NCBI GenBank assembly: GCA_026388415.1
Contig: JAPLJV010000023.1
Location: 1 to 64,000, forward strand
Length of the DNA stretch: 64,000 nt
Source of the DNA: Deltaproteobacteria bacterium
GTDB taxonomy: Bacteria > Desulfobacterota > Syntrophia > Syntrophales > JACQWR01
Reading direction: 5' to 3'
Made by a program: the position numbers and the translations under genes. This document shows, piece by piece, positions 20,387 to 33,307 of the stretch (position 1 is its first letter; each line of letters begins with the position of its first letter). The notes under the pieces were generated by a model that was not told the DNA's origin, searched no databases, and worked only from the letters and a program-made list of their open reading frames with translations.

Positions 20387-23134
20387 GTGAAACCGGAAGA
20401 GAAGGCGCGGCAAAAGATCGATCATCTGCTTGGAGAGGCAGGATGGGAGGTTCAGGATCGGAACGAACTCAACCTTGATGCCGGTGCTGGCGTCGCCGTG
20501 CGGGAGTATCAGACGGAGGTCGGACCGGCCGATTACATCCTCTTTGTGGACCGGAAACCGATCGGCGTCATCGAAGCCAAGAAAGAGGAAGAGGGCGTCC
20601 GCCTGACCGTAGTGGAAGAACAATCCGCCGAATATGCCGCGAGCCGGCTGAAATACCTGAACAATTCTCCTCTTCCCTTCGTGTATGAAAGCACGGGCGC
20701 CCTGACCCGCTTTACGGATTATCGCGATCCGAAACCAAGATCGCGCCCGGTCTTCCGATTTCATCGGCCCGAGACGTTCCGGGAAGGCCTGAAAAAGCCT
20801 AAGTCCCTGCGAGAGCGGCTTCTTTCCCTGCCCGCCCTGCCCACGCAAGGTCTGCGCGACTGCCAGATCAAGGCCACGACCAATCTCGAAGCCTCCTTCA
20901 AGGCCAACCAGCCCCGCGCCCTCATCCAGATGGCCACGGGTTCGGGCAAGACCTTTGCCGCCATCACCGCCATCTACCGCCTCCTGAAATTTGCCGACGC
21001 CAAGCGGATTCTGTTTCTCGTGGACACCCGCAACCTGGGCGAGCAGGCGGAACAGGGATTCATGGCCTACCTGCCCAATGACGACAACCGCAAATTCACG
21101 GAACTCTACAACGTCCAGCGCCTGAAATCGAGTTATGTCGCCACGGACAGCCAGGTCTGCATCAGCACGATCCAGCGCCTCTATTCCATCCTGAAAGGCG
21201 AAGAGCTGGACGATACGGCCGAAGAAACCAATCCCGGCGAGGTGAACTGGGGCAAGCGCGAACCCCTGCCTGTGGTGTACAACGCCAAACTCCCAATCGA
21301 GTTTTTCGATTTCATCGTGATCGATGAATGCCACCGCAGCATTTACAACCTCTGGAAGCAGGTTTTGGAATATTTCGATGCCTTTCTCATCGGGCTCACG
21401 GCCACGCCGGATCAGCGGACCTTCGGCTTTTTCAACCAGAATATCGTGAGCGAATATACCCATGAAGAGGCCGTGGCCGATGGGGTCAATGTGGGCTACA
21501 ATGTCTATCTGATCGAAACCACAATTTCGAAAAAGGGCTCTGTCGTCTGGAAGGGCGAATACGTCGATGTCCGGGAAAAACTCTCCCGCAAGAAGCGCTG
21601 GCAGCAGTTGGATGAAGACGTGGCCTATTCCGCCAAAAGTCTGGACGATGACGTGGTGAACCCCAATCAGATCCGCGCCATTATCCGCACGTTTAAAGAG
21701 CATTGGCCGCAGATCTTCCCGCAGAGAAAAGAAGTGCCGAAAACGCTCATTTTTGCCAAGACCGACAGCCATGCCGACGACATCATCCAGATCGTCCGGG
21801 AGGAATTCGCGGAAGGCAACGCCTTCTGTAAAAAGGTGACCTATCTGGCCGAGGAAGACCCGAAGTCGGTCCTGGCCCAGTTCCGCAATGACTACCATCC
21901 GCGCATTGCCGTTACCGTCGATATGATCGCCACGGGCACGGACGTAAAGCCCCTGGAATGCCTCATCTTTATGCGCGATGTGAAAAGCCGCAACTATTTC
22001 GAGCAGATGAAGGGTCGGGGCACCCGGACGATCAACCTGGACGACCTGCGCAAGGTCACGCCCTCGGCCCAATATACAAAAGATCATTTCATCATCATCG
22101 ATGCCGTGGGCGTCACGAAATCCCTGAAGACGGACAGCCGCCCCCTGGAACGCAAACCCACCGTCTCCCTCAAAGATCTGCTGGCCGCCGTGGCCGTGGG
22201 CGCCCACGATGAAGACCTCTTCACCACCCTGGCCGGCCGCCTGGGCCGCCTGGCAAAGATCATCACGGCGAAGGAAGCGGGACAGTTCCAGGCCAAAGCG
22301 CAAGGAAGCTCGATTGGCGAAGTCGTCAAAAAACTCCTCCATGCCTACGATCCCGACCAGATTGAAGCGACCGCCCGGAAGCAATTCAACCTGACGGCCG
22401 ATGATACGCCCACCCCGGCGCAACTGGGCGATGCCCAGGAAAAACTGATCACCCAGGCAGCACGCCCCTTTACGGGCGAACTGAATACGTTCATCGAAAA
22501 TGTCCGCAAGCTTCACGAACAGATTATCGACATCATCAATCCCGATACCGTCGAGTTTGCCGGGTGGGATGGGCAGGCCAAGGACCAGGCGGCGGAACTC
22601 GTGCAGAATTTCAAGACCTACCTGGAGACCAACAAGGATGAAATCACGGCCCTCCAGATCTTTTACAACCAGCCCTACCGGCGCAAGGAACTGACCTACG
22701 CCATGATCAAGGAACTCCTGGAACGCCTGAAACTTGATAAACCGGCCCTGGCGCCTCTGCGCATCTGGAAGGCCTATGAGCGATTGGAGGCGGTCACGGG
22801 CACGAACCCGGTCAACGAACTGGTGGCTCTGGTCTCCCTCATCCGCCGGATCACGGGTATTGACGCGGCCCTGACGCCTTACGACAAGACCGTGGACAGG
22901 AATTTTCAGGCCTGGGTCTTCCAGAAACAGGCCGGGCCGCTCAAGTTCACCAATGAACAGATGGCCTGGCTGCGCATGATGAAAGAGCATATCGCCACGT
23001 CGATCCATATCGGCAAAGACGATCTGGACTTCGCGCCCTTTGACGCCCAGGGTGGCCTAGGGAAAATGTGGCAGCTATTCGGTGATAAGACCGAAGAAAT
23101 GATTGACGAGATCAACGAGGCATTGGCGGCGTAG
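20387..23134 (+). CDS. hsdR: Type I restriction endonuclease subunit R
   Basis: 915 residues, GTG start. The nuclease domain shows the PD-(D/E)xK residues in GPADYILFVDRKPIGVIEAKKE (Asp49, Glu63, Lys65). The translocase has Walker A TGSGKT at 184-189 and a DECH box in IVIDECHRSIYNLW. A C-terminal helical domain follows, as in EcoEI-type enzymes. The complex cuts foreign DNA at random after translocating from an unmethylated site; HsdS and HsdM downstream supply recognition and modification. An antisense frame of 879 codons (20369-23008) mirrors this gene and is a shadow. The GC-rich codon usage resembles the chromosome more than the methyltransferase pair further along. Confidence 0.95.
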   Translation: MKPEEKARQKIDHLLGEAGWEVQDRNELNLDAGAGVAVREYQTEVGPADYILFVDRKPIGVIEAKKEEEGVRLTVVEEQSAEYAASRLKYLNNSPLPFVYESTGALTRFTDYRDPKPRSRPVFRFHRPETFREGLKKPKSLRERLLSLPALPTQGLRDCQIKATTNLEASFKANQPRALIQMATGSGKTFAAITAIYRLLKFADAKRILFLVDTRNLGEQAEQGFMAYLPNDDNRKFTELYNVQRLKSSYVATDSQVCISTIQRLYSILKGEELDDTAEETNPGEVNWGKREPLPVVYNAKLPIEFFDFIVIDECHRSIYNLWKQVLEYFDAFLIGLTATPDQRTFGFFNQNIVSEYTHEEAVADGVNVGYNVYLIETTISKKGSVVWKGEYVDVREKLSRKKRWQQLDEDVAYSAKSLDDDVVNPNQIRAIIRTFKEHWPQIFPQRKEVPKTLIFAKTDSHADDIIQIVREEFAEGNAFCKKVTYLAEEDPKSVLAQFRNDYHPRIAVTVDMIATGTDVKPLECLIFMRDVKSRNYFEQMKGRGTRTINLDDLRKVTPSAQYTKDHFIIIDAVGVTKSLKTDSRPLERKPTVSLKDLLAAVAVGAHDEDLFTTLAGRLGRLAKIITAKEAGQFQAKAQGSSIGEVVKKLLHAYDPDQIEATARKQFNLTADDTPTPAQLGDAQEKLITQAARPFTGELNTFIENVRKLHEQIIDIINPDTVEFAGWDGQAKDQAAELVQNFKTYLETNKDEITALQIFYNQPYRRKELTYAMIKELLERLKLDKPALAPLRIWKAYERLEAVTGTNPVNELVALVSLIRRITGIDAALTPYDKTVDRNFQAWVFQKQAGPLKFTNEQMAWLRMMKEHIATSIHIGKDDLDFAPFDAQGGLGKMWQLFGDKTEEMIDEINEALAA

Positions 23135-23144
23135 GACCGCCCTC

Positions 23145-23175
23145 GTCGTCATTCCCGCGCAGGCGGGAATCCAGG
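23145..23175. repeat. REP-like hairpin between hsdR and hsdS
   Basis: attcccgcgcaggcgggaat is a perfect stem-loop preceded by cgtc and followed by ccagg, the short form of the dispersed family. It lies in the 58-base gap of a gene pair that is probably cotranscribed. Confidence 0.75.
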
Positions 23176-23192
23176 AATTTTAAAGGGGTAAG

Positions 23193-24470
23193 ATGGAAGA
23201 ACGCTGCATAAGCATTGATGATCTTCCCGTAGGCTGGGAACAAATTCATCTTAAAGATGTTTGTGAAATCATTTTAGGACAATCGCCTCCCTCTGAAACC
23301 TATAATACTGTTGGAAATGGGTTACCTTTTTTTCAGGGTAAAGCGGAGTTTACAGAGCTTCATCCTGTAGCCGAAAAATGGTGCAGCGTCCCCGGTAAAA
23401 TTGCGGAACAAAATGATATTTTGCTTTCAGTGCGTGCGCCTGTTGGCAATACAAATATTGCCGACAGAAAATGCTGTATCGGAAGAGGTTTGGCGGCACT
23501 GCGTTTTCATAATTACAAGTTTTTGTTTTATTATTTGCAGAGCATTGAAAAAGAACTGGACAAAAAAGGAACGGGTACTACTTTCAAAGCAATATCAGGT
23601 GACATTGTAAGAAATGTTGATTTGCCCCTCCCTCCCCTCCTTGAACAAAACCGCATCGTCGCCAAGGTAGAAGAACTCTTCAGCGAGCTGGACAAAGGCG
23701 TGGAAGCCCTCAAGGCCGTCCAGCAGCAACTCAAGGTTTACCGTCAGGCCGTCCTCAAATGGGCATTCGAAGGTAGTTTTACTGGAGGCCTTGAAAATTG
23801 GGAACATACGACACTTGGTAGTATTTTAAAAATTAGTTCAGGTAATGGATTGACCAAGTCTACAAGAAATGATGATGGTCAATATTTAGTTTATGGTGGT
23901 AATGGGGTGACAGGGAATCATTCCGAATTTATGTTTGCAGAACCTCAATTGATTATTGGACGGGTTGGCGTTCATTGTGGGAATACTCATATAACAAAGC
24001 TCAAAAGCTGGATTACTGATAACGCTTTTGTCGTTTATTTTAATAGCAACAAGATAAATATTCATTTTCTCTTCTATCTCGTTAAGAACTTAAATCTTAA
24101 TCAACTTTCTAGTTCAACAGCTCAACCCGTAATTTCTGGAAGTAAGGTTTATCCAATTAAGTGTAAAATCCCGAGCATAGATATTCAACAAAAGGTAAAT
24201 CAATCCATCGAAACCCGCCTCTCCGTGGCCGACAAGCTCGAAGAAACCATCTCCCAAAGCCTCCAGCAGGCCGAAGCCCTGCGCCATAGCATTTTGAAGA
24301 AGGCCTTTGCAGGCCAGCTGGTCCCGCAAGACCCCAGCGACGAACCGGCGTCAAAGCTCCTGGAGCGCATCAAGACAGAGAAGGCTAGGCAAGCAACGAT
24401 AAAGGGAAGCGTTAGAGGAAGAGGCAAAAAGATGCTGTCATCCCCGAGTGCTTCTGTCGGGGATCCATGA
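23193..24470 (+). CDS. hsdS: Type I restriction specificity subunit S
   Basis: 425 residues: two target-recognition domains (about 10-150 and 205-345) each followed by a long helical spacer. The spacers are LEQNRIVAKVEELFSELDKG onward and DIQQKVNQSIETRLSVADKL onward. The target domains are AT-rich and lysine/asparagine-rich, the spacers GC-rich like hsdR, a mosaic typical of specificity genes that exchange target domains by recombination. It decides which split DNA site the complex reads. The last residues (KKMLSSPSASVGDP) are encoded by a REP-like element that runs past the stop. hsdM is not next but 1.9 kb downstream, behind an abortive-infection pair. Confidence 0.93.
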   Translation: MEERCISIDDLPVGWEQIHLKDVCEIILGQSPPSETYNTVGNGLPFFQGKAEFTELHPVAEKWCSVPGKIAEQNDILLSVRAPVGNTNIADRKCCIGRGLAALRFHNYKFLFYYLQSIEKELDKKGTGTTFKAISGDIVRNVDLPLPPLLEQNRIVAKVEELFSELDKGVEALKAVQQQLKVYRQAVLKWAFEGSFTGGLENWEHTTLGSILKISSGNGLTKSTRNDDGQYLVYGGNGVTGNHSEFMFAEPQLIIGRVGVHCGNTHITKLKSWITDNAFVVYFNSNKINIHFLFYLVKNLNLNQLSSSTAQPVISGSKVYPIKCKIPSIDIQQKVNQSIETRLSVADKLEETISQSLQQAEALRHSILKKAFAGQLVPQDPSDEPASKLLERIKTEKARQATIKGSVRGRGKKMLSSPSASVGDP

Positions 24471-24535
24471 TTTTTTTAGATTCAGATGGATTCCCGCCGC
24501 AGTTTACCCTCGCGCAGGCAGGGGCGGGACATGAC
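24437..24535. repeat. Degenerate REP-like element forming the hsdS 3' end
   Basis: tcatccccgagtgcttctgt and cggggatccatg form one hairpin; a related second part (gatggattcccgcc and gggcgggacatgacag) follows after about 40 bases. The left hairpin is inside the hsdS coding sequence, so the insertion gave the protein its present C-terminus. Confidence 0.5.
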
Positions 24536-24566
24536 AGATTTTGTTCAATAGGATGCGCCAAGGCAT

Positions 24567-24625
24567 GGTGCATTCTATTTCCCATAAATAGCTTGACAAG
24601 GTATAAATAAAAAATACAATGCACC
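24567..24625 (+). promoter_or_regulatory. abiE promoter with flanking inverted-repeat operator
   Basis: TTGACA (24593-24598) and TACAAT (24615-24620) are 16 bases apart. The ATG of abiEi begins seven bases after the -10, where transcription would start, so the message is probably leaderless; no ribosome site is visible. GGTGCATT at 24567-24574 and its exact complement AATGCACC at 24618-24625 bracket the promoter. AbiEi proteins are known to bind inverted repeats in their own promoter, so this is a candidate operator. Confidence 0.7.
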
Positions 24626-24626
24626 C

Positions 24627-25427
24627 ATGAAAACCACTCTCGGAAAACAGGAGACGCAACTGCTCGCGTACCTGCAGATGCGCAAGCGACAGACCGTCAG
24701 GTCGGGAGAGCTGACCGAGCCCCTTCAACTGAGCCGCGATCAGGAACGTAAGCTCTTTAGCCGGCTGGCCCGGGGCGGCCTGATCGCCCGGGTCCGCAAT
24801 GGCTTCTACCTCGTGCCTGCCCAGCTTCCCCTCGGCGGCGCCTGGAGCCCCGACGAGACCCTGGCGCTCAATGCCCTGATGGAGGACCGGCAGGGGCGCT
24901 ACCAGATCTGCGGGCCCAACGCCTTCAACCGGTACGGCTTCGACGAACAGATCCCGACCCGTGTCTACGCTTACAACAACCGGATCTCGGGGGAGCGGAC
25001 CATCGGTGCGGTTAGCCTGACCCTGATCAAGGTGGCTGACGAACGACTGGGCGATACAGAGGAGGTGCGGACTCCTGAAGGCCGTTCCGCCGTCTACAGC
25101 TCCCGCGTCCGGACCCTCGTGGACGCCGTCTACGACTGGGCGCGTTTCAACAGCCTACCCCGTGCCTACGACTGGATTCGCGGGGATCTGGCCGCTTCCC
25201 GTATTTCCGACTCCGTACTGGTCGATGCCACCTTGCGTTACGGAGACAAGGGGACGATCCGGCGGATCGGGCTGCTGCTGGAGCGGCAAGGGGCGGCTAC
25301 GGATCTGCTGCAGAAGCTCGAAGGGGTACTGACACCGTCCACCGGTCTGATCCCGTGGATTCCCGGAAGACCGAAGCGGGGGACGATCAGTCGCCGCTGG
25401 GGCGTCGTTGTAAACGAGGAGGCGTGA
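24627..25427 (+). CDS. abiEi: AbiEi-type antitoxin / autoregulator
   Basis: 266 residues. The N-terminal 75 residues form a winged helix-turn-helix (ETQLLAYLQMRKRQTVRSGE, then LFSRLARGGLIARVRNGFYLV), as in the AbiEi antitoxins of type IV systems. The C-terminal domain binds DNA cooperatively in characterised members. It neutralises the AbiEii nucleotidyltransferase and represses its own operon. The stop (TGA) is one base before the next ATG, so the pair is coupled. The promoter is bracketed by an inverted repeat and the message appears leaderless. The pair interrupts the hsd operon between hsdS and hsdM. Confidence 0.85.
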   Translation: MKTTLGKQETQLLAYLQMRKRQTVRSGELTEPLQLSRDQERKLFSRLARGGLIARVRNGFYLVPAQLPLGGAWSPDETLALNALMEDRQGRYQICGPNAFNRYGFDEQIPTRVYAYNNRISGERTIGAVSLTLIKVADERLGDTEEVRTPEGRSAVYSSRVRTLVDAVYDWARFNSLPRAYDWIRGDLAASRISDSVLVDATLRYGDKGTIRRIGLLLERQGAATDLLQKLEGVLTPSTGLIPWIPGRPKRGTISRRWGVVVNEEA

Positions 25428-25428
25428 G

Positions 25429-26313
25429 ATGAATGCACCCATCCAGATGCATGAAGACCCCTTACTGTTCCGGGAGGACATGAACTTCACGGCGACCCAG
25501 ACCAGGTTTCTGCCCCGCCTGATCGAAAAGGATTATTTTTGCACGCTCCTGCTCAACTATCTGGCCGCGGCGGATGCTACGCTGATTTTCAAGGGCGGGA
25601 CATGCCTGGCCAAGGTGCATGCCGAATTCTACCGCCTCAGCGAAGACCTGGACTTCGTCATTCCCGCGCCCTGCGACGCCCCCCGGTCCCAACGGCGTGC
25701 CCTGGCGACCCGCCTGAAAGAGGCGGCCGGAAGGATCGAAGCGGACCTGAAGCCCTTCCGGATCGTCGAGCCGCTGAGAGGTGCGAACAACTCGACCCAA
25801 TACGTCGCCTGCATCGGTTATCAATCGCTACTCAGCGGGCAGGAGGAGACCATCAAGATCGAGGTAGGGCTCCGCGAGCCTTTGCTGATGCCTGTCTCCA
25901 ACAGCATGGCGAGGACGCTCTTGCTTAACCCCATCTCGGGCCAGCCGATGGTGCCGGCCTTTCCCGTTTCCTGCATCTCCAGGGAAGAGGCGATGGCTGA
26001 AAAGTTGCGGGCGGCCCTGTCACGGCGCGACGTGGCGATCCGCGATTTCTACGATATCGACCATGCTGTCCGAAAGATGGATCTGGATCCCCGGGAACGG
26101 TCCTTCATCGCGATGGTCCACCGGAAGCTCTCCGTTCCTGGCAACGATCCGGTCGATGTATCCGACAGTCGTCTGGCGGAGCTTCGGCTGCAACTCGTTT
26201 CTCAGTTGAAGCCCGTCCTGCGCGAGCAGGACTTCCAGGCATTCGATCTCGAATCCGTTTTCCAGGAAGTGGGGGCGGTGGCCTCCCTGCTGGCAAAAAA
26301 CAACTCTGCATGA
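25429..26313 (+). CDS. abiEii: AbiEii-type nucleotidyltransferase toxin
   Basis: 294 residues. The nucleotidyltransferase core is LIFKGGTCLAKVHAEFYRLSEDLDFVIP: the GG motif followed by the two catalytic aspartates in EDLDF. KIEVGLREPLL and later SREEAMAEKLRAALSRRDVAIRDFYDI complete the family pattern. Enzymes of this group transfer nucleotides to tRNA or other targets and stop growth during phage infection. It begins one base after the abiEi stop. Catalytic residues are all present, so it appears functional. Confidence 0.88.
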   Translation: MNAPIQMHEDPLLFREDMNFTATQTRFLPRLIEKDYFCTLLLNYLAAADATLIFKGGTCLAKVHAEFYRLSEDLDFVIPAPCDAPRSQRRALATRLKEAAGRIEADLKPFRIVEPLRGANNSTQYVACIGYQSLLSGQEETIKIEVGLREPLLMPVSNSMARTLLLNPISGQPMVPAFPVSCISREEAMAEKLRAALSRRDVAIRDFYDIDHAVRKMDLDPRERSFIAMVHRKLSVPGNDPVDVSDSRLAELRLQLVSQLKPVLREQDFQAFDLESVFQEVGAVASLLAKNNSA

Positions 26314-26349
26314 TGTCATAATGACACTGTATGGTGTTGCATAATGACA
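26314..26349. promoter_or_regulatory. Palindrome and repeat upstream of hsdM
   Basis: tgtcataatgaca at 26314-26326 is a perfect 13-base palindrome directly after the abiEii stop. Its right part recurs as cataatgaca at 26340-26349. It could be an operator controlling hsdM, which must now be transcribed separately or by read-through from abiE. No clear -35/-10 pair accompanies it. Confidence 0.4.
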
Positions 26350-26403
26350 AACCACCTTCCATCGGAAGATTAATGGAATAAGTTTTAACGAGGCATCACT
26401 CCT

Positions 26404-27882
26404 ATGAACGACAACGCATCAAGCATCATCTCCAAGGTCTGGAGCTTCTGCAACACCCTGCGCGATGATGGCGTGGGCTACGGCGATTATCTGGAACAGC
26501 TCACGTACCTCCTCTTTCTGAAACTGGCCGATGAGTTTTCCCGGCCGCCCTACAACCGCCCGTTACTGATGCCGAAGACCTATGATTGGGAAAGTCTCAC
26601 TTCAAGAAAGGGCGCGGAGCTGGAGCTGCATTACAGCAAGTTGCTGCGGGAGTTGGGGCAGCAAAAGGGCATCCTCGGGCAGATCTTCACGAAATCCCAG
26701 AACAAGATCCAGGACCCGGCCAAGCTCTCCCGGCTCATCGACATGATCGACAAGGAGCAGTGGAGCACGATGGGGACGGACGTCAAAGGCAAGATTTACG
26801 AAGGCCTCCTGGAGAAAAACGCCGAAGACACCAAGAGCGGCGCCGGGCAGTACTTCACGCCACGGCCGCTGATCAAGGCGATGGTGGAATGCCTCCGGCC
26901 CGAACCCCTGAAGACCATTGCCGATCCGGCCTGCGGCACGGGCGGGTTTTTCCTGGCCGCCTACGACTATATCGCGGCTCATAAAGGAATCGACAAAGAA
27001 GATAAAGGATTTCTGAAATACCAGACCTTCTACGGCAACGAGATCGTGGCGGGCGCCCGCCGGCTGGCCCTCATGAATATGTTTCTCCACAATATCGGCG
27101 ATATCGACTCGGAAACCTTCATTTCGCCCACCGATTCCCTCGTGGCCGACTCGGGCCTGCGCGTGGATTACGTTCTGACCAATCCGCCTTTCGGGAAGAA
27201 GAGCAGCATGACCTTCACGAACGAGGAAGGCGAGCAGGAGAAGGAAGACCTCACCTATAACCGCCAGGACTTCTGGGCGACGACGAGCAACAAGCAACTC
27301 AACTTTGTCCAGCACATCCGCACAATGCTTAAAACAACGGGCAAGGCCGCCGTGGTCGTCCCCGACAATGTCCTCTTCGAAGGCGGGGCCGGGGAAACGG
27401 TCCGGAAACGGCTGCTCGAAACCATGGATCTCCATACCATCCTGCGCCTGCCGACAGGTATTTTCTATGCTCAGGGCGTCAAGGCGAATGTCCTGTTCTT
27501 CGATGCCCAACCCGCCGCCAAGGAACCCTGGACAAAGGAGATCTGGTATTACGATTACCGCACAAACATCCATCACACCCTGAAAAAGAATCCCCTGAAA
27601 TTGGAGGATTTGCGGGATTTTATTGAATGCTACCAGCCCGAAAACCGCCATACCCGCAAGGAAACATGGCACCCGGAAGCCAATCCCGAAGGCCAGTGGC
27701 GCAAGTTCACCTATGACGAAATCGTCAACCGCGACAAAACCAGCCTGGACATCTTCTGGCTGAGAGACAAAAGCCTGGCCGACTTGGACAATCTGCCGGA
27801 CCCCGACGTACTGGCCAACGACATTATCGAAAACCTCGAAGCAGCAGTTGCCAGTTTTAAAGAAATTGCGCAGAGAATTTAG
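26404..27882 (+). CDS. hsdM: Type I restriction-modification methyltransferase subunit M
   Basis: 492 residues. The N-terminal helical domain is followed by the adenine-N6 methyltransferase fold: the S-adenosylmethionine site DPACGTGGFFLAAYDYI (about 174-190) and the catalytic motif NPPF at 260-263. GQYFTPRPLIKAMVE is the conserved HsdM segment before it. It methylates adenine in the site chosen by HsdS and is needed for both modification and cutting. It follows the abiE pair by 90 bases rather than sitting beside hsdS. Length and motifs are complete. Confidence 0.95.
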   Translation: MNDNASSIISKVWSFCNTLRDDGVGYGDYLEQLTYLLFLKLADEFSRPPYNRPLLMPKTYDWESLTSRKGAELELHYSKLLRELGQQKGILGQIFTKSQNKIQDPAKLSRLIDMIDKEQWSTMGTDVKGKIYEGLLEKNAEDTKSGAGQYFTPRPLIKAMVECLRPEPLKTIADPACGTGGFFLAAYDYIAAHKGIDKEDKGFLKYQTFYGNEIVAGARRLALMNMFLHNIGDIDSETFISPTDSLVADSGLRVDYVLTNPPFGKKSSMTFTNEEGEQEKEDLTYNRQDFWATTSNKQLNFVQHIRTMLKTTGKAAVVVPDNVLFEGGAGETVRKRLLETMDLHTILRLPTGIFYAQGVKANVLFFDAQPAAKEPWTKEIWYYDYRTNIHHTLKKNPLKLEDLRDFIECYQPENRHTRKETWHPEANPEGQWRKFTYDEIVNRDKTSLDIFWLRDKSLADLDNLPDPDVLANDIIENLEAAVASFKEIAQRI

Positions 27883-28338
27883 AGGCAGGCGAGTGAAAGG
27901 AGGTCCGCGCCGGGGCGTCAAATGAGAGGAATAATTTGCATGAAAATGATCGGCAATGTCGGAGTATTATTAATTATATCATGTTGATAAGTTAGTTCAG
28001 CGCGCTGAACTGGCCTCCCGATGGGGGCCGGTCTAAGGGCTATCATTTTGGTGTATAGGATTGATTGAAGCGCACTGCCATTGCCGATATTCATGGTTGC
28101 TGTAGGAGCCATTTTGGCTTGATAAATCCTTTCCCGGAATAGATATATTGCGCATGATCTGATATTACAGATGTAGCATTAAGTGAAATTGGAAATTGTC
28201 CAATGATAATACTTGTAATATTTTTGACTGAATAGCACTGTAATCGGGCAAGTTGCGCGAACCGCTCAACTCGCCGTTATCTGGCACAGGATAGGTGATA
28301 AAATTTAATGAGTGGTCTCAAGAATACAACGGAATACA
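27883..28338. other. AT-rich intergenic region with a palindrome
   Basis: About 450 bases with no gene I can support. It contains an 18-base perfect palindrome followed at once by a second stem-loop (see the next entry), and marks the point where GC-rich restriction genes give way to AT-rich sequence. A 64-codon minus-strand frame (27918-28112) has no recognisable domain. This may be a junction left by an earlier insertion. Confidence 0.4.
27994..28029. repeat. Perfect palindrome plus adjoining hairpin
   Basis: agttcagcgcgctgaact (18 bases) is its own reverse complement. It is followed without a gap by ggcctcccgatgggggcc, a second hairpin with one G-T pair. The tandem arrangement suggests the end of a mobile element or a binding site, but I could not name one. 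Confidence 0.6.
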
Positions 28339-29613
28339 ATGAAAAACACTTTATTTGATATTCACAACGCTGATGCTCGAAACGTGGCTGACTACATTTA
28401 CGGAGAATTGATTACAACATCGATCACTTCCCCCCCGTATTTTGATATGAAAGATTACGGAGCAGACGATCAAATAGGTTTTGGTCAAAGCTATCATCAG
28501 TACTTGGAAGACTTAAAGATAGTCTTTTCAAGTATCTACAAGGTTACAAAGAATGATGGAACATTATGGATTATTATCGATACATTCAAGGACAAAAATG
28601 GGGTGGTCCTCCTACCTTTCGATTTGGCCTCAAAGTTAAAAGAAATTGGCTGGATGCTTCAGGACATTATCATCTGGAAAAAGGACAAAACTGTACCTTG
28701 GTCATCAGCAGGATTTGTTCAGCGAAAATTTGAGTACATTTTGTTTTTCTCGAAATCGAAAAACTTCAAGTACCATCGCGATAGAGTACGAATCTATGAC
28801 ACGAAACACCTTAAAAAATGGTGGGTTAGGTATCCTGAGCGGTATAACCCAAAGGGTAAAGCATTGGATGAAGTCTGGGAATTTTCCATTCCAACACAGG
28901 GATCTTGGGGTGATAAGTACATCAGACATTTTTGTCCTCTGCCTACTGACATGATTGGAAATATAATACAACTTACAACGGATGAAGGTGATATTGTTTT
29001 GGACCCGTTTTCTGGAAGTGGTTCGGTTTTAGTACAAGCAGCCTACATGAAAAGGAAATATGTGGGTTTTGAGATAAATACGAAATATATTCAAATGTTT
29101 AAGACTTATCGGCAGAAAACCTTAGCAAGTGGCACCAAAAAATACGAACAATTACAAGCTGATACTTCTAAGCAAGACGACTTCGAAAATATAATCCTGA
29201 AACTTCGTTGTTTGAAATACGCACGAGTCTTATACAACAAGACAGGAAAGCTTTTTGACACAAATCCAATCAAATATATTGTCGTTGACGATCTCGGTTA
29301 TAGTCAGGAAACGAATAAACTGAAGAAAGTGCGATATTCCATCATTTATAACCATAACCTTATATGTAGTAATGAATTCATCTCAATATTGCATGGGATG
29401 AGCACTGTTACCCCTCTTTCCAAATTTGGAATTGAGCCCGTAATAGAGCTAAAAAGCCATGTGGAGGACATTCATGGTGGTAAATCGTTGTATGGATATA
29501 CAAGCAGTAATACAAATAACACAATTGGAGAGGTGAACATAGGCGCTATCCCTCCAAAAGCACATATTCTTAGTCATATAAAAGTTGCAGTAGTCGAAAG
29601 TGATTTTGAATGA
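28339..29613 (+). CDS. DNA methyltransferase (N4-cytosine / N6-adenine type)
   Basis: 424 residues from the ATG at 28339 (a GTG at 28312 would add nine). The order of motifs marks the beta class: catalytic SPPY early (about 31-34 by this start), then the S-adenosylmethionine site LDPFSGSGSVLVQAA near 220. It should modify an exocyclic amino group in a short DNA site. The C-terminal 160 residues lie beyond the catalytic domain, have no motif I know, and may be a recognition domain. The gene is AT-rich and Lys/Ile/Asn-rich, unlike the hsd genes beside it, suggesting separate transfer. The DGQHR gene begins nine bases after its stop. Confidence 0.85.
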   Translation: MKNTLFDIHNADARNVADYIYGELITTSITSPPYFDMKDYGADDQIGFGQSYHQYLEDLKIVFSSIYKVTKNDGTLWIIIDTFKDKNGVVLLPFDLASKLKEIGWMLQDIIIWKKDKTVPWSSAGFVQRKFEYILFFSKSKNFKYHRDRVRIYDTKHLKKWWVRYPERYNPKGKALDEVWEFSIPTQGSWGDKYIRHFCPLPTDMIGNIIQLTTDEGDIVLDPFSGSGSVLVQAAYMKRKYVGFEINTKYIQMFKTYRQKTLASGTKKYEQLQADTSKQDDFENIILKLRCLKYARVLYNKTGKLFDTNPIKYIVVDDLGYSQETNKLKKVRYSIIYNHNLICSNEFISILHGMSTVTPLSKFGIEPVIELKSHVEDIHGGKSLYGYTSSNTNNTIGEVNIGAIPPKAHILSHIKVAVVESDFE

Positions 29614-29622
29614 AGGAATCTT

Positions 29623-31383
29623 ATGGCAAAAGCTAAGAAGAGATCCAAGAAAAAACTGACGGAACAAGAGAAAGAACAAAGACTACAAAAACAGGAAATT
29701 CGAAGGCTACTACACAATATAGGTTTTAGTAGGGTCACCGGAATCTCCGGTAAAGAATTTGTGTACGACGAAAGGACATCAGAAATTGATGATGCCTTTC
29801 ATTATGAAAATATCTTGTTGCTAATTGAATATACGACGCAGGCTAAGCCTGGAAATCATTTGATTGGTAAAAAGATTATATATGACAAGATCAATCTTTC
29901 TCATGTCAATTTCATTGAGTTCTTACTTAAAGATAATAAGTTTAAAAACTTTGCCGAGTATTTCAATAACTCCGTTCTAAAGAATTACACCACAAAGCAG
30001 ATTCAAGTCAGGACAGTGTATTGTTCAAGACACCCTATTTCCAAAGAGCATCGGGATCAGATTAATGGTGTATGCTTGTTGAATTACCCGATCGTGAAGT
30101 ATTTTGAGAGAATTGCCAAGGCAATTAAGAGGTCAGCGAGATATGAGTTCTTTCAATTCTTGAAAACTGATTATAATAAATTCAGTGAGAATATTACAAG
30201 GGGACACCTTGGCAGTAATACAAAGTTTTCCGGTCACATACTGCCAGAAGAACACAGTAAATACAAAGAGGGATACAAGATCATTTCTTTCTATATCGAT
30301 GCCGCTTCACTGATGCAGCGCGCATACGTGCTCAGGAGAGATGGTTGGAATAATGTTGGTACAATTGGGTTTTACCAGCGTATGTTTTCAGCAGATAAGA
30401 TCTCCAAAATGAGAAGCTATCTGTATGAAAAAGATAGAGTATTTGTTAATAATATCATCGCTGTTTTGCCAAGAGAAAAAATAAAATTGTACGGTGAAAA
30501 CAAAAAAGAAATCTCAGTGGGGAAGGATGGTAACTTCATAAACACCGACACAACAAGTGTGCAACCGACCCTGGTAGAGATTGACAATGATACGAATATA
30601 ATTGGAATTGTTGACGGCCAGCATAGACTCTATTCTTATCATGAAGGTACCGATAAATTTGAAGAGAAAATAGCGCGGCTGCGAAAGGTTCAGAACCTTC
30701 TAGTCACTGGAATTCTATACCCTGAGACTGAAAATAAGGAAGAAAAACTGAAATTTGAAGCGGAATTGTTTCTGGAAATCAATTCTAATCAGACAAATGC
30801 GGGCTCAGAACTTAAACAGGAGATAGAATTGATGATAGCTCCTTTCTCTTCAATTTCGGTCGCAAAGTCAATTCTAAATGCATTGAACGAGTCTGGTCCA
30901 TTAGAGAACTTGTTTGAGCAGCATTTCTATGAAAAAGGTAGGTTGAAGACCGCTTCTATAATCAGCTATGGCTTGAAGCCTCTTGTCAAATTTGATGGTG
31001 ACGATAGCCTATATAAGATTTGGACCCATCCCGACAAAAGCAGCCTTATAAATCATAATAATTATGTTCTATTAAATGCATATAAAGAATTTTGCGTCGA
31101 CGAAATTAGGAAGATTTTCATTGGCTTCAAAAACAACGTTGATGGTGACTCATGGACATCAGAACGATTGAATCCCAATGGCATTCTTAGAGTCACTGCT
31201 ATTAATGGCATCATCAATTGCCTCCGCCTACTAATTGAGAATGACAAAACCGAAGATATGGATTATTACAAGAAAAAACTCAAAGGTATTGCGGAGTTTC
31301 CTTTCAAGGATTACAAATCCAGTCAATACAGAAAAATGGGCGAAGAAATATATCGGCAATTCTTCAATGATGGGAAAATATAG
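29623..31383 (+). CDS. DGQHR-domain protein with possible nuclease-like N-terminus
   Basis: 586 residues. The motif IVDGQHRLYSYHEG at about 329-342 identifies the DGQHR domain, seen in DndB and DpdB, the regulators or partners of DNA phosphorothioate and deazaguanine systems. The N-terminus starts with a very basic segment (AKKRSKKKLTEQEKEQR). Residues 48-75 read YDERTSEIDDAFHYENILLL and then IEYTTQAK, a spacing of acidic residues (Glu54, Asp56, Glu69) and Lys75 like a PD-(D/E)xK nuclease core; this is my inference. It is cotranscribed with the methyltransferase. Together they look like a modification enzyme plus a target-sensing or cutting partner. Confidence 0.75.
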   Translation: MAKAKKRSKKKLTEQEKEQRLQKQEIRRLLHNIGFSRVTGISGKEFVYDERTSEIDDAFHYENILLLIEYTTQAKPGNHLIGKKIIYDKINLSHVNFIEFLLKDNKFKNFAEYFNNSVLKNYTTKQIQVRTVYCSRHPISKEHRDQINGVCLLNYPIVKYFERIAKAIKRSARYEFFQFLKTDYNKFSENITRGHLGSNTKFSGHILPEEHSKYKEGYKIISFYIDAASLMQRAYVLRRDGWNNVGTIGFYQRMFSADKISKMRSYLYEKDRVFVNNIIAVLPREKIKLYGENKKEISVGKDGNFINTDTTSVQPTLVEIDNDTNIIGIVDGQHRLYSYHEGTDKFEEKIARLRKVQNLLVTGILYPETENKEEKLKFEAELFLEINSNQTNAGSELKQEIELMIAPFSSISVAKSILNALNESGPLENLFEQHFYEKGRLKTASIISYGLKPLVKFDGDDSLYKIWTHPDKSSLINHNNYVLLNAYKEFCVDEIRKIFIGFKNNVDGDSWTSERLNPNGILRVTAINGIINCLRLLIENDKTEDMDYYKKKLKGIAEFPFKDYKSSQYRKMGEEIYRQFFNDGKI

Positions 31384-31452: not shown

Positions 31453-31722
31453 ATGAAATTTGAGTGGGACAAAGATAAAGAGAGAAGGAACATAAGAAAA
31501 CACGCAATTTCTTTTGACGAAGCCGTCACCGTGTTCTATGACCCCTTATCGGCAACGATTGCTGACCCGGACCACTCCATCGAAGAGGTCCGATTAATCA
31601 CTATTGGTTATTCATCCCAAGGACGCCTGTTCGTTATATCGCACACGGAACGAGGCGAGGCGATACGGATTATCAGTGCACGTCCTGCAACTATTTTAGA
31701 GAGGAAAAGACATGAAAACTAA
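31453..31722 (+). CDS. brnT: BrnT-family toxin
   Basis: 89 residues, normal for BrnT. It opens MKFEWDKDKERRNIRKHAIS and contains FDEAVTVFYDP, and ends IRIISARPATILERKRHEN, all family signatures. BrnT is a RelE-fold ribonuclease that blocks translation. It lies upstream of its antitoxin, as is usual for this family, and overlaps it by 11 bases. The ribosome site is aggaagg. Confidence 0.9.
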   Translation: MKFEWDKDKERRNIRKHAISFDEAVTVFYDPLSATIADPDHSIEEVRLITIGYSSQGRLFVISHTERGEAIRIISARPATILERKRHEN

Positions 31723-31966
31723 AACTATAGAGGAACTGCGTCCCGAATATGAATTCGATTATTCGAAGGCCGTTCGTGGTAAGTATTTCAAGCGACTGCT
31801 GGAGGAAGGCGCGAATGTAGCCGTCCTCGAACCTGAAATAGCCAAGGTGTTTACCAGCTCGACTGCTGTGAATGATGCCTTAAGGTCTCTCCTTGAAATT
31901 ACAAGATCAACACAGCGCCTAACGAAGCACTCAACCGGACGCGCTAAAAAAATGCGCGCCCTTTAG
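31712..31966 (+). CDS. Antitoxin of the BrnT pair
   Basis: 84 residues. The first 63 (MKTKTIEELRPEYEFDYSKA, then VRGKYFKRLLEEGANVAVLE, up to VNDALRSLLEI) match the antitoxins that accompany BrnT toxins and probably form a dimeric DNA-binding fold. The last 20 residues (TRSTQRLTKHSTGRAKKMRA) look like read-through of non-coding sequence: they lie in an attC-like inverted repeat. The original gene probably stopped earlier, and insertion into a cassette junction changed its end. It should neutralise BrnT and repress the operon. Confidence 0.8.
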   Translation: MKTKTIEELRPEYEFDYSKAVRGKYFKRLLEEGANVAVLEPEIAKVFTSSTAVNDALRSLLEITRSTQRLTKHSTGRAKKMRAL

Positions 31967-31980
31967 CTTTGTCGTTGTGT
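31909..31980 (+). repeat. attC-like inverted repeat (possible integron cassette end)
   Basis: gcgcctaacgaagcactcaa at the left, an inner stem (ggacgcgc with gcgcgcc around a taaaaaaat loop), and tttgtcgttgtgt at the right give the layout of an integron attC site. The left core CCTAAC fits; the right core GTTGTGT departs from the consensus at one or two bases. No integron integrase is in the window. Support is suggestive only. Confidence 0.35.
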
Positions 31981-32082
31981 ACTGAAAAAGAACTAGCCTC
32001 ACTCGGTTTGCATCATTGTTTGCTTCATAAATCAATCTTAGGATGCAAACCAAGCCCGCGGGAAAAACCGGGAGGCACCCAC

Positions 32083-32250
32083 ATGGTTTATGAAGCTCAA
32101 AAAACAGAGCACACCGGCCCAAAGAAAGGGCGCGGCGCTTACTGGGGCCGGAAGCAAGCGGCCAAGAAGGAATCCAACCGGGTGCGGCGGGAGGCCGACA
32201 AGAATGAATCAAAACCGGTAACTGATTCTGATGGAAAATCAAAGGAGTGA
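32083..32250 (+). CDS. Small basic hypothetical protein
   Basis: 55 residues from the ATG at 32083, with gggagg nine bases upstream; the longer frame from 31969 has no such site. It begins MVYEAQKTEHTGPKKGRGAY and is strongly charged (WGRKQAAKKESNRVRREADK). I recall similar small basic proteins in other bacterial genomes but know no function. It overlaps the Fic gene's first ATG by 20 bases. Confidence 0.6.
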   Translation: MVYEAQKTEHTGPKKGRGAYWGRKQAAKKESNRVRREADKNESKPVTDSDGKSKE

Positions 32251-33307
32251 TATTGTTGGTATGATGACACTAAAACAGTTCATTTCGGGTCTTGATACTA
32301 TACCCGCGACGACCTCATGGTATCTGGCCGACATCGGTGAAGCGAAAGGCAGGCAGGGGCTTTATACAAAGCAGTCGCCGCAGCGGTTGAAATCACTTAA
32401 AGAGCATGCCCTTATTGAAAGTGCGGTTTCATCCAACCGCATCGAAGGTGTTGAGGTCGAGAAAAAACGTATCGGTACCGTCATCTTTGGCAAGTCACTT
32501 CTTCACGATCGATCAGAGGAGGAGATTCGGGGTTATCGTGAAGCTCTCAATCTCATCCATGATAGCGGGGCAAAATTGTCCATTACGGAAGATACCTGCC
32601 GGAAGCTACACCGTCTGATGCGCGGCGAAATATGGGATGCCGGCAAATACAAGGAAAAAGACAGCGACATCATCGAAAAACGTCAGGATGGGACGTCCAG
32701 CATAAGATTTCGGACTGTTCCTGCCGGTAAAACTTCTTTCTATATGAAACAACTGATTGATTCATGGCAGGAATGCATTAGCGAAGCAAAGGTTCATCCT
32801 CTCATTACGCTGGCGGCATTCAACCTGGATTTTCTGTGCATCCATCCGTTCCGTGACGGAAACGGCAGAGTCTCCAGGCTGCTGATGCTTCTACAGTGCT
32901 ACCATCTGGACATCGGGGTCGGAAGATATATCAGCCTTGAACGTCTCATCGAGCAGAACAAAGAAAGATACTACGAAACATTAAGGCTGAGCTCAGAAGG
33001 CTGGCACGAAGGCAGACACGACCCGTGGCATTATATCAACTTTGTCTGTTTCATCCTTAAGAGCGCTTACACAGAATTTGAAGAAAGGCTGGCCCGTTTG
33101 CCACAACCAAGGGGTGAGAAGACAGCAATGATACAGGACGCAGTGAGAAGTTTTCCCGGTAATTTCAGTGTTGCCGATATCCAGGGGAAATGTCCCGGTA
33201 TCGGCATTGATATGATCCGCAGGGTGCTCAAAGACCTTCAGGTTCAAGAGGTTGTCGAATGTCTGGACCGCGGCAGAAATGCAAAATGGCATAAAACCGG
33301 GAATTAG
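32231..33307 (+). CDS. Fic-family AMP-transferase
   Basis: 358 residues from the first ATG; a second ATG at 32261 (MMTLKQFISG) is also possible, and aaaggag at 32241-32247 sits between them. The catalytic motif is HPFRDGNGRVSR at 205-216. The self-inhibitory helix with SSNRIEG at 67-73 precedes it, which makes it a class II Fic protein held in an off state. The C-terminal 70 residues look like a winged helix. It would transfer AMP to a target protein hydroxyl, and the built-in inhibitor replaces a separate antitoxin. Confidence 0.9.
   Translation: MENQRSDIVGMMTLKQFISGLDTIPATTSWYLADIGEAKGRQGLYTKQSPQRLKSLKEHALIESAVSSNRIEGVEVEKKRIGTVIFGKSLLHDRSEEEIRGYREALNLIHDSGAKLSITEDTCRKLHRLMRGEIWDAGKYKEKDSDIIEKRQDGTSSIRFRTVPAGKTSFYMKQLIDSWQECISEAKVHPLITLAAFNLDFLCIHPFRDGNGRVSRLLMLLQCYHLDIGVGRYISLERLIEQNKERYYETLRLSSEGWHEGRHDPWHYINFVCFILKSAYTEFEERLARLPQPRGEKTAMIQDAVRSFPGNFSVADIQGKCPGIGIDMIRRVLKDLQVQEVVECLDRGRNAKWHKTGN

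Follow-up and report, generated by a model that had tools for sequence, protein, structure and literature searches.

The stretch of DNA analysed here (64,000 nucleotides of contig JAPLJV010000023.1, from a Deltaproteobacteria bacterium of the order Syntrophales; hereafter, the window) contains two adjacent genes on the forward strand, coding for a DNA methyltransferase (MTase) and for a protein with the motif DGQHR. The MTase open reading frame (ORF) lies at 28339..29613 (+) and encodes 424 aa from its ATG, or 433 aa if an upstream GTG at 28312 is used. Exactly 9 bases further on, at 29623..31383 (+), an intact ORF encodes 586 aa of what we predict to be a restriction endonuclease (REase), a fusion of a PD-(D/E)xK nuclease domain with a DGQHR domain. 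An original prediction, made from the letters of the window, had described the nine-base spacing, the length of the second protein and its DGQHR at residues 331-335, and the sequence agrees with it on all three points. It had also called the pair AT-rich. Indeed, GC content is 0.373 in the MTase gene and 0.369 in the DGQHR gene (about 37%), versus approximately 0.54 in the rest of the window, and this low GC is consistent with a recent arrival of the pair.

The MTase matches the Pfam family PF01555 (N6_N4_Mtase) with E=1e-45, and its best solved relative is M1.MboIIA (1g60). It shares 51-52% identity with the MTase from Akkermansia phage Chantilly and belongs to a subfamily, here named MTw, with a C-terminal extension of about 160 aa. 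The catalytic motif IV, SPPY (residues 31-34; 28429..28440, +), invariant in the MTw/MTa alignment, comes ahead of the S-adenosylmethionine (AdoMet)-binding motif I, DPFSGSG (residues 222-228; 29002..29022, +), recognised from the sequence and the alignment. This is the beta-class motif order and, together with the PF01555 match, it bears out the class originally proposed. The SPPY form of motif IV is typical of N4-cytosine MTases, and thus the mark would probably be N4-methylcytosine. A count of palindromic-hexamer depletion around the loci, meant to guess the recognition site, yielded no usable signal.

In the second protein, the model TIGR03187 identifies a ParB/sulfiredoxin-like DGQHR domain at residues 222-402 (30286..30828, +), with a score of 61.0 bits against a curated cut-off of 58.85. 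The domain includes YQR at 251-253, FxxxN at 383-387 and the DGQHR motif at 331-335 (30613..30627, +). Both the domain and the invariant motif were found in 41/41 aligned family members (see below). When the whole protein was modelled by AlphaFold with these 41 members, the mean pLDDT was 88.2, and human sulfiredoxin with ADP (1xw4) was among the weak Foldseek matches of the full-length model. More specific models scored low: 19 bits for Pfam DndB (PF14072), under its cut-off, 28.8 bits versus a cut-off of 450 for the DGQHR_dnd_1 equivalog, and 22.5 bits versus 300 for the DpdB equivalog (22-24 bits across the family). Searches of PDB sequences with phmmer and hmmsearch gave no match, and among the PADLOC models the protein matched none of the REase_II set, its only hit being the weak one to DpdB. 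In the source genome we found neither dndC nor dpdA, and the best dndD score was 22.8 bits versus a cut-off of 245.85; dndE was not searched. On these grounds we rejected membership in the Dnd phosphorothioation system (no dndC, dndD far below cut-off) and in the Dpd 7-deazaguanine system (no DpdA in the genome, DpdB model far below cut-off). The absence of dnd and dpd genes, first noted for the window, extends in this way to the genome for dndC, dpdA and any above-cut-off dndD.

The N-terminal region (residues ~14-180; 29662..30162, +) is covered by no Pfam family, a Pfam scan of the 41 members having returned nothing consistent. Its AlphaFold model has a pLDDT of 94.9 for residues 1-190 and presents, in order, a helix (14-33), four strands (45-48, 51-55, 57-61 and 64-71), a helix (76-92), a strand (128-135), a helix (141-146) and a strand (150-154), which include the alpha-beta-beta-beta-alpha-beta core of the PD-(D/E)xK superfamily. 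The best Foldseek match of this domain was Cdn1 (E=2.6e-3, probability 0.99), followed by VC1899, Can2, the R2 endonuclease, the small subunit of R.BspD6I, Bax1, MspJI, McrC, Cap4 and cap-snatching endonucleases, a list which we take to consist mainly of PD-(D/E)xK enzymes. As no single match falls below 1e-3, the assignment of the fold class rests on the consistency of the matches and not on one strong match; on the basis of the model, we are confident that the N-terminus is predicted to adopt a PD-(D/E)xK nuclease fold, as the original prediction had supposed.

Conservation and the model together point to a predicted active site formed by E54, D56, E69-x-T71, H79 and K83 (29782..29871, +). 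D56, E69, T71, H79 and K83 are invariant in 41/41 aligned proteins, with identities down to approximately 30%, and residue 54 is acidic in all 41. In the model, D56 is placed at the first hairpin, E69 and T71 on the strand 64-71, and K83 on the helix 76-92. The nuclease-like spacing first proposed involved acidic residues at 54, 56 and 69, together with Lys75. The acidic positions are kept throughout the family; Lys75 is a lysine in only 3/41 proteins, versus 41/41 for Lys83, and the candidate catalytic lysine would be Lys83 rather than Lys75.

Then, we evaluated whether the two genes are found together in other genomes. No relatives of the DGQHR protein emerged from single-sequence scans of genome and viral contigs, nor from a tblastn search of 394 other genomes sampled across the phylum. 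Plasmids and phages searched by tblastn yielded three relatives of full length, from Phyllobacterium, Rhizobium and Akkermansia phage Chantilly, and a Spirosoma plasmid with an N-terminal fragment. The profile built from the window protein and the three complete relatives identified 39 loci in bacterial genomes and five viral loci which, with the four plasmid and phage records from tblastn, make a total of 48 loci. The hosts include Bacteroidota, alpha-, beta- and gammaproteobacteria, Desulfurivibrio, Nitratidesulfovibrio, and phages and prophages. A beta-class MTase gene abuts the DGQHR gene (-80 to +25 nt), mostly upstream and on the same strand, in 43/48 loci, or in 41/46 once the near-duplicates L025/L048 and L004/L049 are merged. 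As the MTase played no part in finding these loci, the pairing does not follow from the search design. An all-against-all comparison of the neighbours revealed no third widely recurring gene family. Thirty other DGQHR-domain proteins served as a control; their flanks of approximately 1.5 kb contained no such MTase in any case, as judged by a profile that could miss very different MTases.

The reciprocal search, starting from the MTase, agrees with this result. Among 393 genomes of the order to which locus L016 belongs, five carried a close relative of the L016 MTase and six carried the DGQHR protein; the DGQHR gene directly adjoined the MTase in all five MTase carriers, two of which were already known, and the sixth DGQHR gene had its own abutting MTase, of the DPPY type. 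Furthermore, in each of the two main subfamilies of the MTase, its tree covaries with that of the DGQHR protein (Mantel r=0.72 and r=0.62, reached in 2/2000 and 0/2000 permutations, respectively), although these correlations may reflect shared species history as well as coevolution. The phage copy of the pair sits between the repressor and the integrase, a usual position for cargo genes, which, with the plasmid copies, fits a mobile defence or addiction cassette. The pair is conserved and horizontally spread. The two outcomes that would have refuted the original prediction, a model lacking a nuclease fold and a pairing not conserved elsewhere, were both checked, and neither was observed.

Several loci have other layouts. 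In L029 (Aliiglaciecola), an 83-aa Xre controller-like gene stands between the DGQHR gene, which follows it, and a divergent Type II MTase (PADLOC MTase_II, 454 bits). This is the layout of controller-regulated restriction-modification (R-M) systems, with the DGQHR gene standing in the REase position. The L029 MTase is 57% identical to that of L040, whose neighbours are a REase of the BamHI family and a further DGQHR gene. In L005 (8353-10451), an MTase and a BglII/BstYI-type REase accompany the N-terminus of a DGQHR protein. In L007 (2405-7710), one gene row comprises an MTase, a GHKL ATPase (549 aa), a 300-aa protein of unknown function and the DGQHR protein, possibly an expanded version of the pair. 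In L022, the MTase lies 4.5 kb off, beyond genes for a helicase-like and a NOV_C protein. BamHI or BglII/BstYI-type REases occur near DGQHR-domain genes three times (L100:1084-5051, L005:8353-10451 and L040:3649-7605), a hint that function or specificity may be tied to GATC-core sites. In total, the partners of the DGQHR nuclease are MTases of at least four types, which are found with other restriction modules as well; such variety is more in keeping with a restriction subunit than with a dedicated regulator, and an accessory role in some loci is possible.

Taken together, these results suggest that the pair is a mobile type II-like R-M cassette, in which the PD-(D/E)xK-DGQHR fusion would be the restriction enzyme, a reading to which we assign a probability of roughly three in four. 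As in type II R-M systems, the MTase gene adjoins a separate gene for a predicted nuclease; the nuclease itself matches no type II REase family among the PADLOC models and, for its N-terminus, no family in Pfam. On sequence and model evidence, the original suggestion that the pair modifies self DNA and cuts unmodified DNA is the best reading, while its sensing part draws on the analogy with DndI and SspE. The MTase would methylate self DNA at a specific site, and the N-terminal domain of the DGQHR protein would cut DNA without this mark. The DGQHR domain most likely would bind a nucleoside triphosphate (NTP) and couple the recognition of the site and of its methylation state to release or cleavage.

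The NTP step has precedents among proteins with related domains. In DndI, the DGQQR domain hydrolyses ATP on phosphorothioate-marked self DNA, after which the protein leaves the DNA (PMC11662687); in SspE, the same motif acts on GTP, with hydrolysis stimulated by the mark (PMC13251355). ATP or GTP is bound by ParB-fold proteins, one of them DndB-like (PMC12704722). By analogy with DndI and SspE, the DGQHR protein is perhaps gated by an NTP as well. A more specific proposal, which we regard as tentative and somewhat short of an even chance, is that the DGQHR domain reads methylation, so that the mark left by the MTase would trigger NTP binding or hydrolysis and the nuclease would leave self DNA. 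If this were true, the protein would extend NTP-gated restriction to ordinary methylation, as the methylation counterpart of DndI and SspE.

Some points weigh against the R-M interpretation. The evidence is computational throughout, and the nuclease function is a prediction. With a best Foldseek E value of only 2.6e-3, the N-terminal domain is like the known nucleases in kind and remote from them in detail. Thr71 occupies the position of the canonical ExK lysine, hence catalysis must use the helix residue Lys83, or be altered. Lastly, extra genes adjoin the family DGQHR protein in L005 (BglII-type REase), L040 (BamHI-type REase) and L007, where it might be an accessory.

Three other explanations can be read in the same data. 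The Thr71 substitution would suit a scenario in which the MTase does the actual work, be it epigenetic methylation in the host or methylation against restriction. The DGQHR protein would then regulate the operon as a DndB-like protein that binds ATP, and its nuclease fold would be no more than a relic used in binding DNA. We consider it unlikely, as a relic is not expected to keep five residues invariant in 41 proteins down to approximately 30% identity, and partner MTases of at least four types suit a restriction partner better. The REases adjoining family DGQHR genes in L005 and L040, with the BglII/BstYI REase near a DGQHR gene of unrelated architecture in L100, are instead what one would look for if the protein were an accessory of ordinary type II R-M, a back-up or modification-dependent nuclease whose main REase has mostly been lost or was never present. 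Yet the MTase and DGQHR genes abut in 43/48 loci without a recurrent third gene, and the commoner remnant of such a system should be an MTase without a nuclease, so that we find this account improbable.

The lowest probability goes to a modification pathway, in which the DGQHR protein and the MTase would jointly introduce a base modification or build on it, in the manner of DpdB and DpdA, the nuclease serving to open the DNA. The Dpd DGQHR proteins do act in modification and the family scores 22-24 bits with the DpdB model, but this weak match is far under the cut-off of 300, DpdB is without an N-terminal nuclease, and neither dpdA nor another modification enzyme accompanies the pair. We hold this pathway very improbable.

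Compared with known systems, the pair resembles type II R-M (BamHI, BglII/BstYI) in being a compact mobile cassette of a beta-class MTase and a predicted PD-(D/E)xK nuclease and, in L029, in the controller-gene layout with a BamHI-type MTase. It differs in its nuclease, which is 570-610 aa long, carries a DGQHR domain and fits no PADLOC REase_II model. With the DUF262-HNH nickases DndI (Dnd) and SspE (Ssp) it shares a DGQ(H/Q)R ParB/sulfiredoxin-like domain fused to a nuclease. In DndI and SspE, where the self-mark elicits NTP hydrolysis by this domain (PMC11662687, PMC13251355), the nuclease is HNH and C-terminal and the partners are phosphorothioation genes, whereas in the DGQHR protein it is predicted to be PD-(D/E)xK and N-terminal and the partner is an MTase. 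The DUF262 domain of GmrS, from the type IV system GmrSD, is homologous to DGQHR (PMC4619093); unlike the pair, GmrSD targets modified phage DNA with an HNH nuclease and has no cognate MTase. DndB and DpdB share the DGQHR domain (TIGR03187) but are located in dnd and dpd clusters and, unlike the protein studied here, are without an N-terminal nuclease. A description of the pair was not found in the literature searched, including papers naming DGQHR; REBASE, which lay outside this comparison, may contain family members entered as putative R genes. The predicted role resembles that of type II R-M, with a nuclease architecture for which no paper was found.

In the window, the pair lies in a defence island, as first described. 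Upstream there is a type I R-M operon with hsdR, hsdS and hsdM (20387-27882), interrupted between hsdS and hsdM by AbiEi/AbiEii toxin-antitoxin genes. Directly downstream (31453-33307) there are a BrnT-family toxin gene (PF04365, 94 bits), a small ORF in the antitoxin position and a Fic/DOC gene.

Other DGQHR genes were encountered and set aside. One is a two-gene cassette of a standalone DGQHR protein of approximately 350 aa, followed at once by a protein of ~295-325 aa (L090:4995-7790, L097:3989-5918, L098:3959-5829, L099:3998-5977 and L101:3857-5908), hosted by an Acinetobacter prophage, Leptospira, Providencia and Burkholderia plasmids, and the Pf phage PfAC19. An MTase gene precedes it in L090, and the partners scanned, in L097 and L099, have no Pfam match. 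Lacking the nuclease domain, it was not counted as the same system and is possibly a separate uncharacterised one. The weak DGQHR matches in the window's phylum (L082-L089) are not members of the window family either; in three of these genomes they include a conserved three-gene block (L082:4137-9340, L083:1265-6538 and L084:4135-9331) coding for proteins of ~750 aa, with weak MTase motifs, of ~460 aa, and of ~520-545 aa, the last being DGQHR-like with the motif DGNHR. An archaeal-plasmid MTase lead was dropped, as no annotated DGQHR gene lay nearby, and the TaqII/TaqIII and Prevotella methylome literature had no bearing on the pair.

If the R-M interpretation is right, the pair would be a widespread R-M cassette whose nuclease architecture, PD-(D/E)xK plus DGQHR, is absent from the defence and family models searched, and part of the poorly annotated DGQHR family would gain a function. 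The pair would also link classical methylation-based restriction with the phosphorothioate-sensing DndI and SspE, making it testable whether ParB/sulfiredoxin-like domains are general readers of DNA self-marks.
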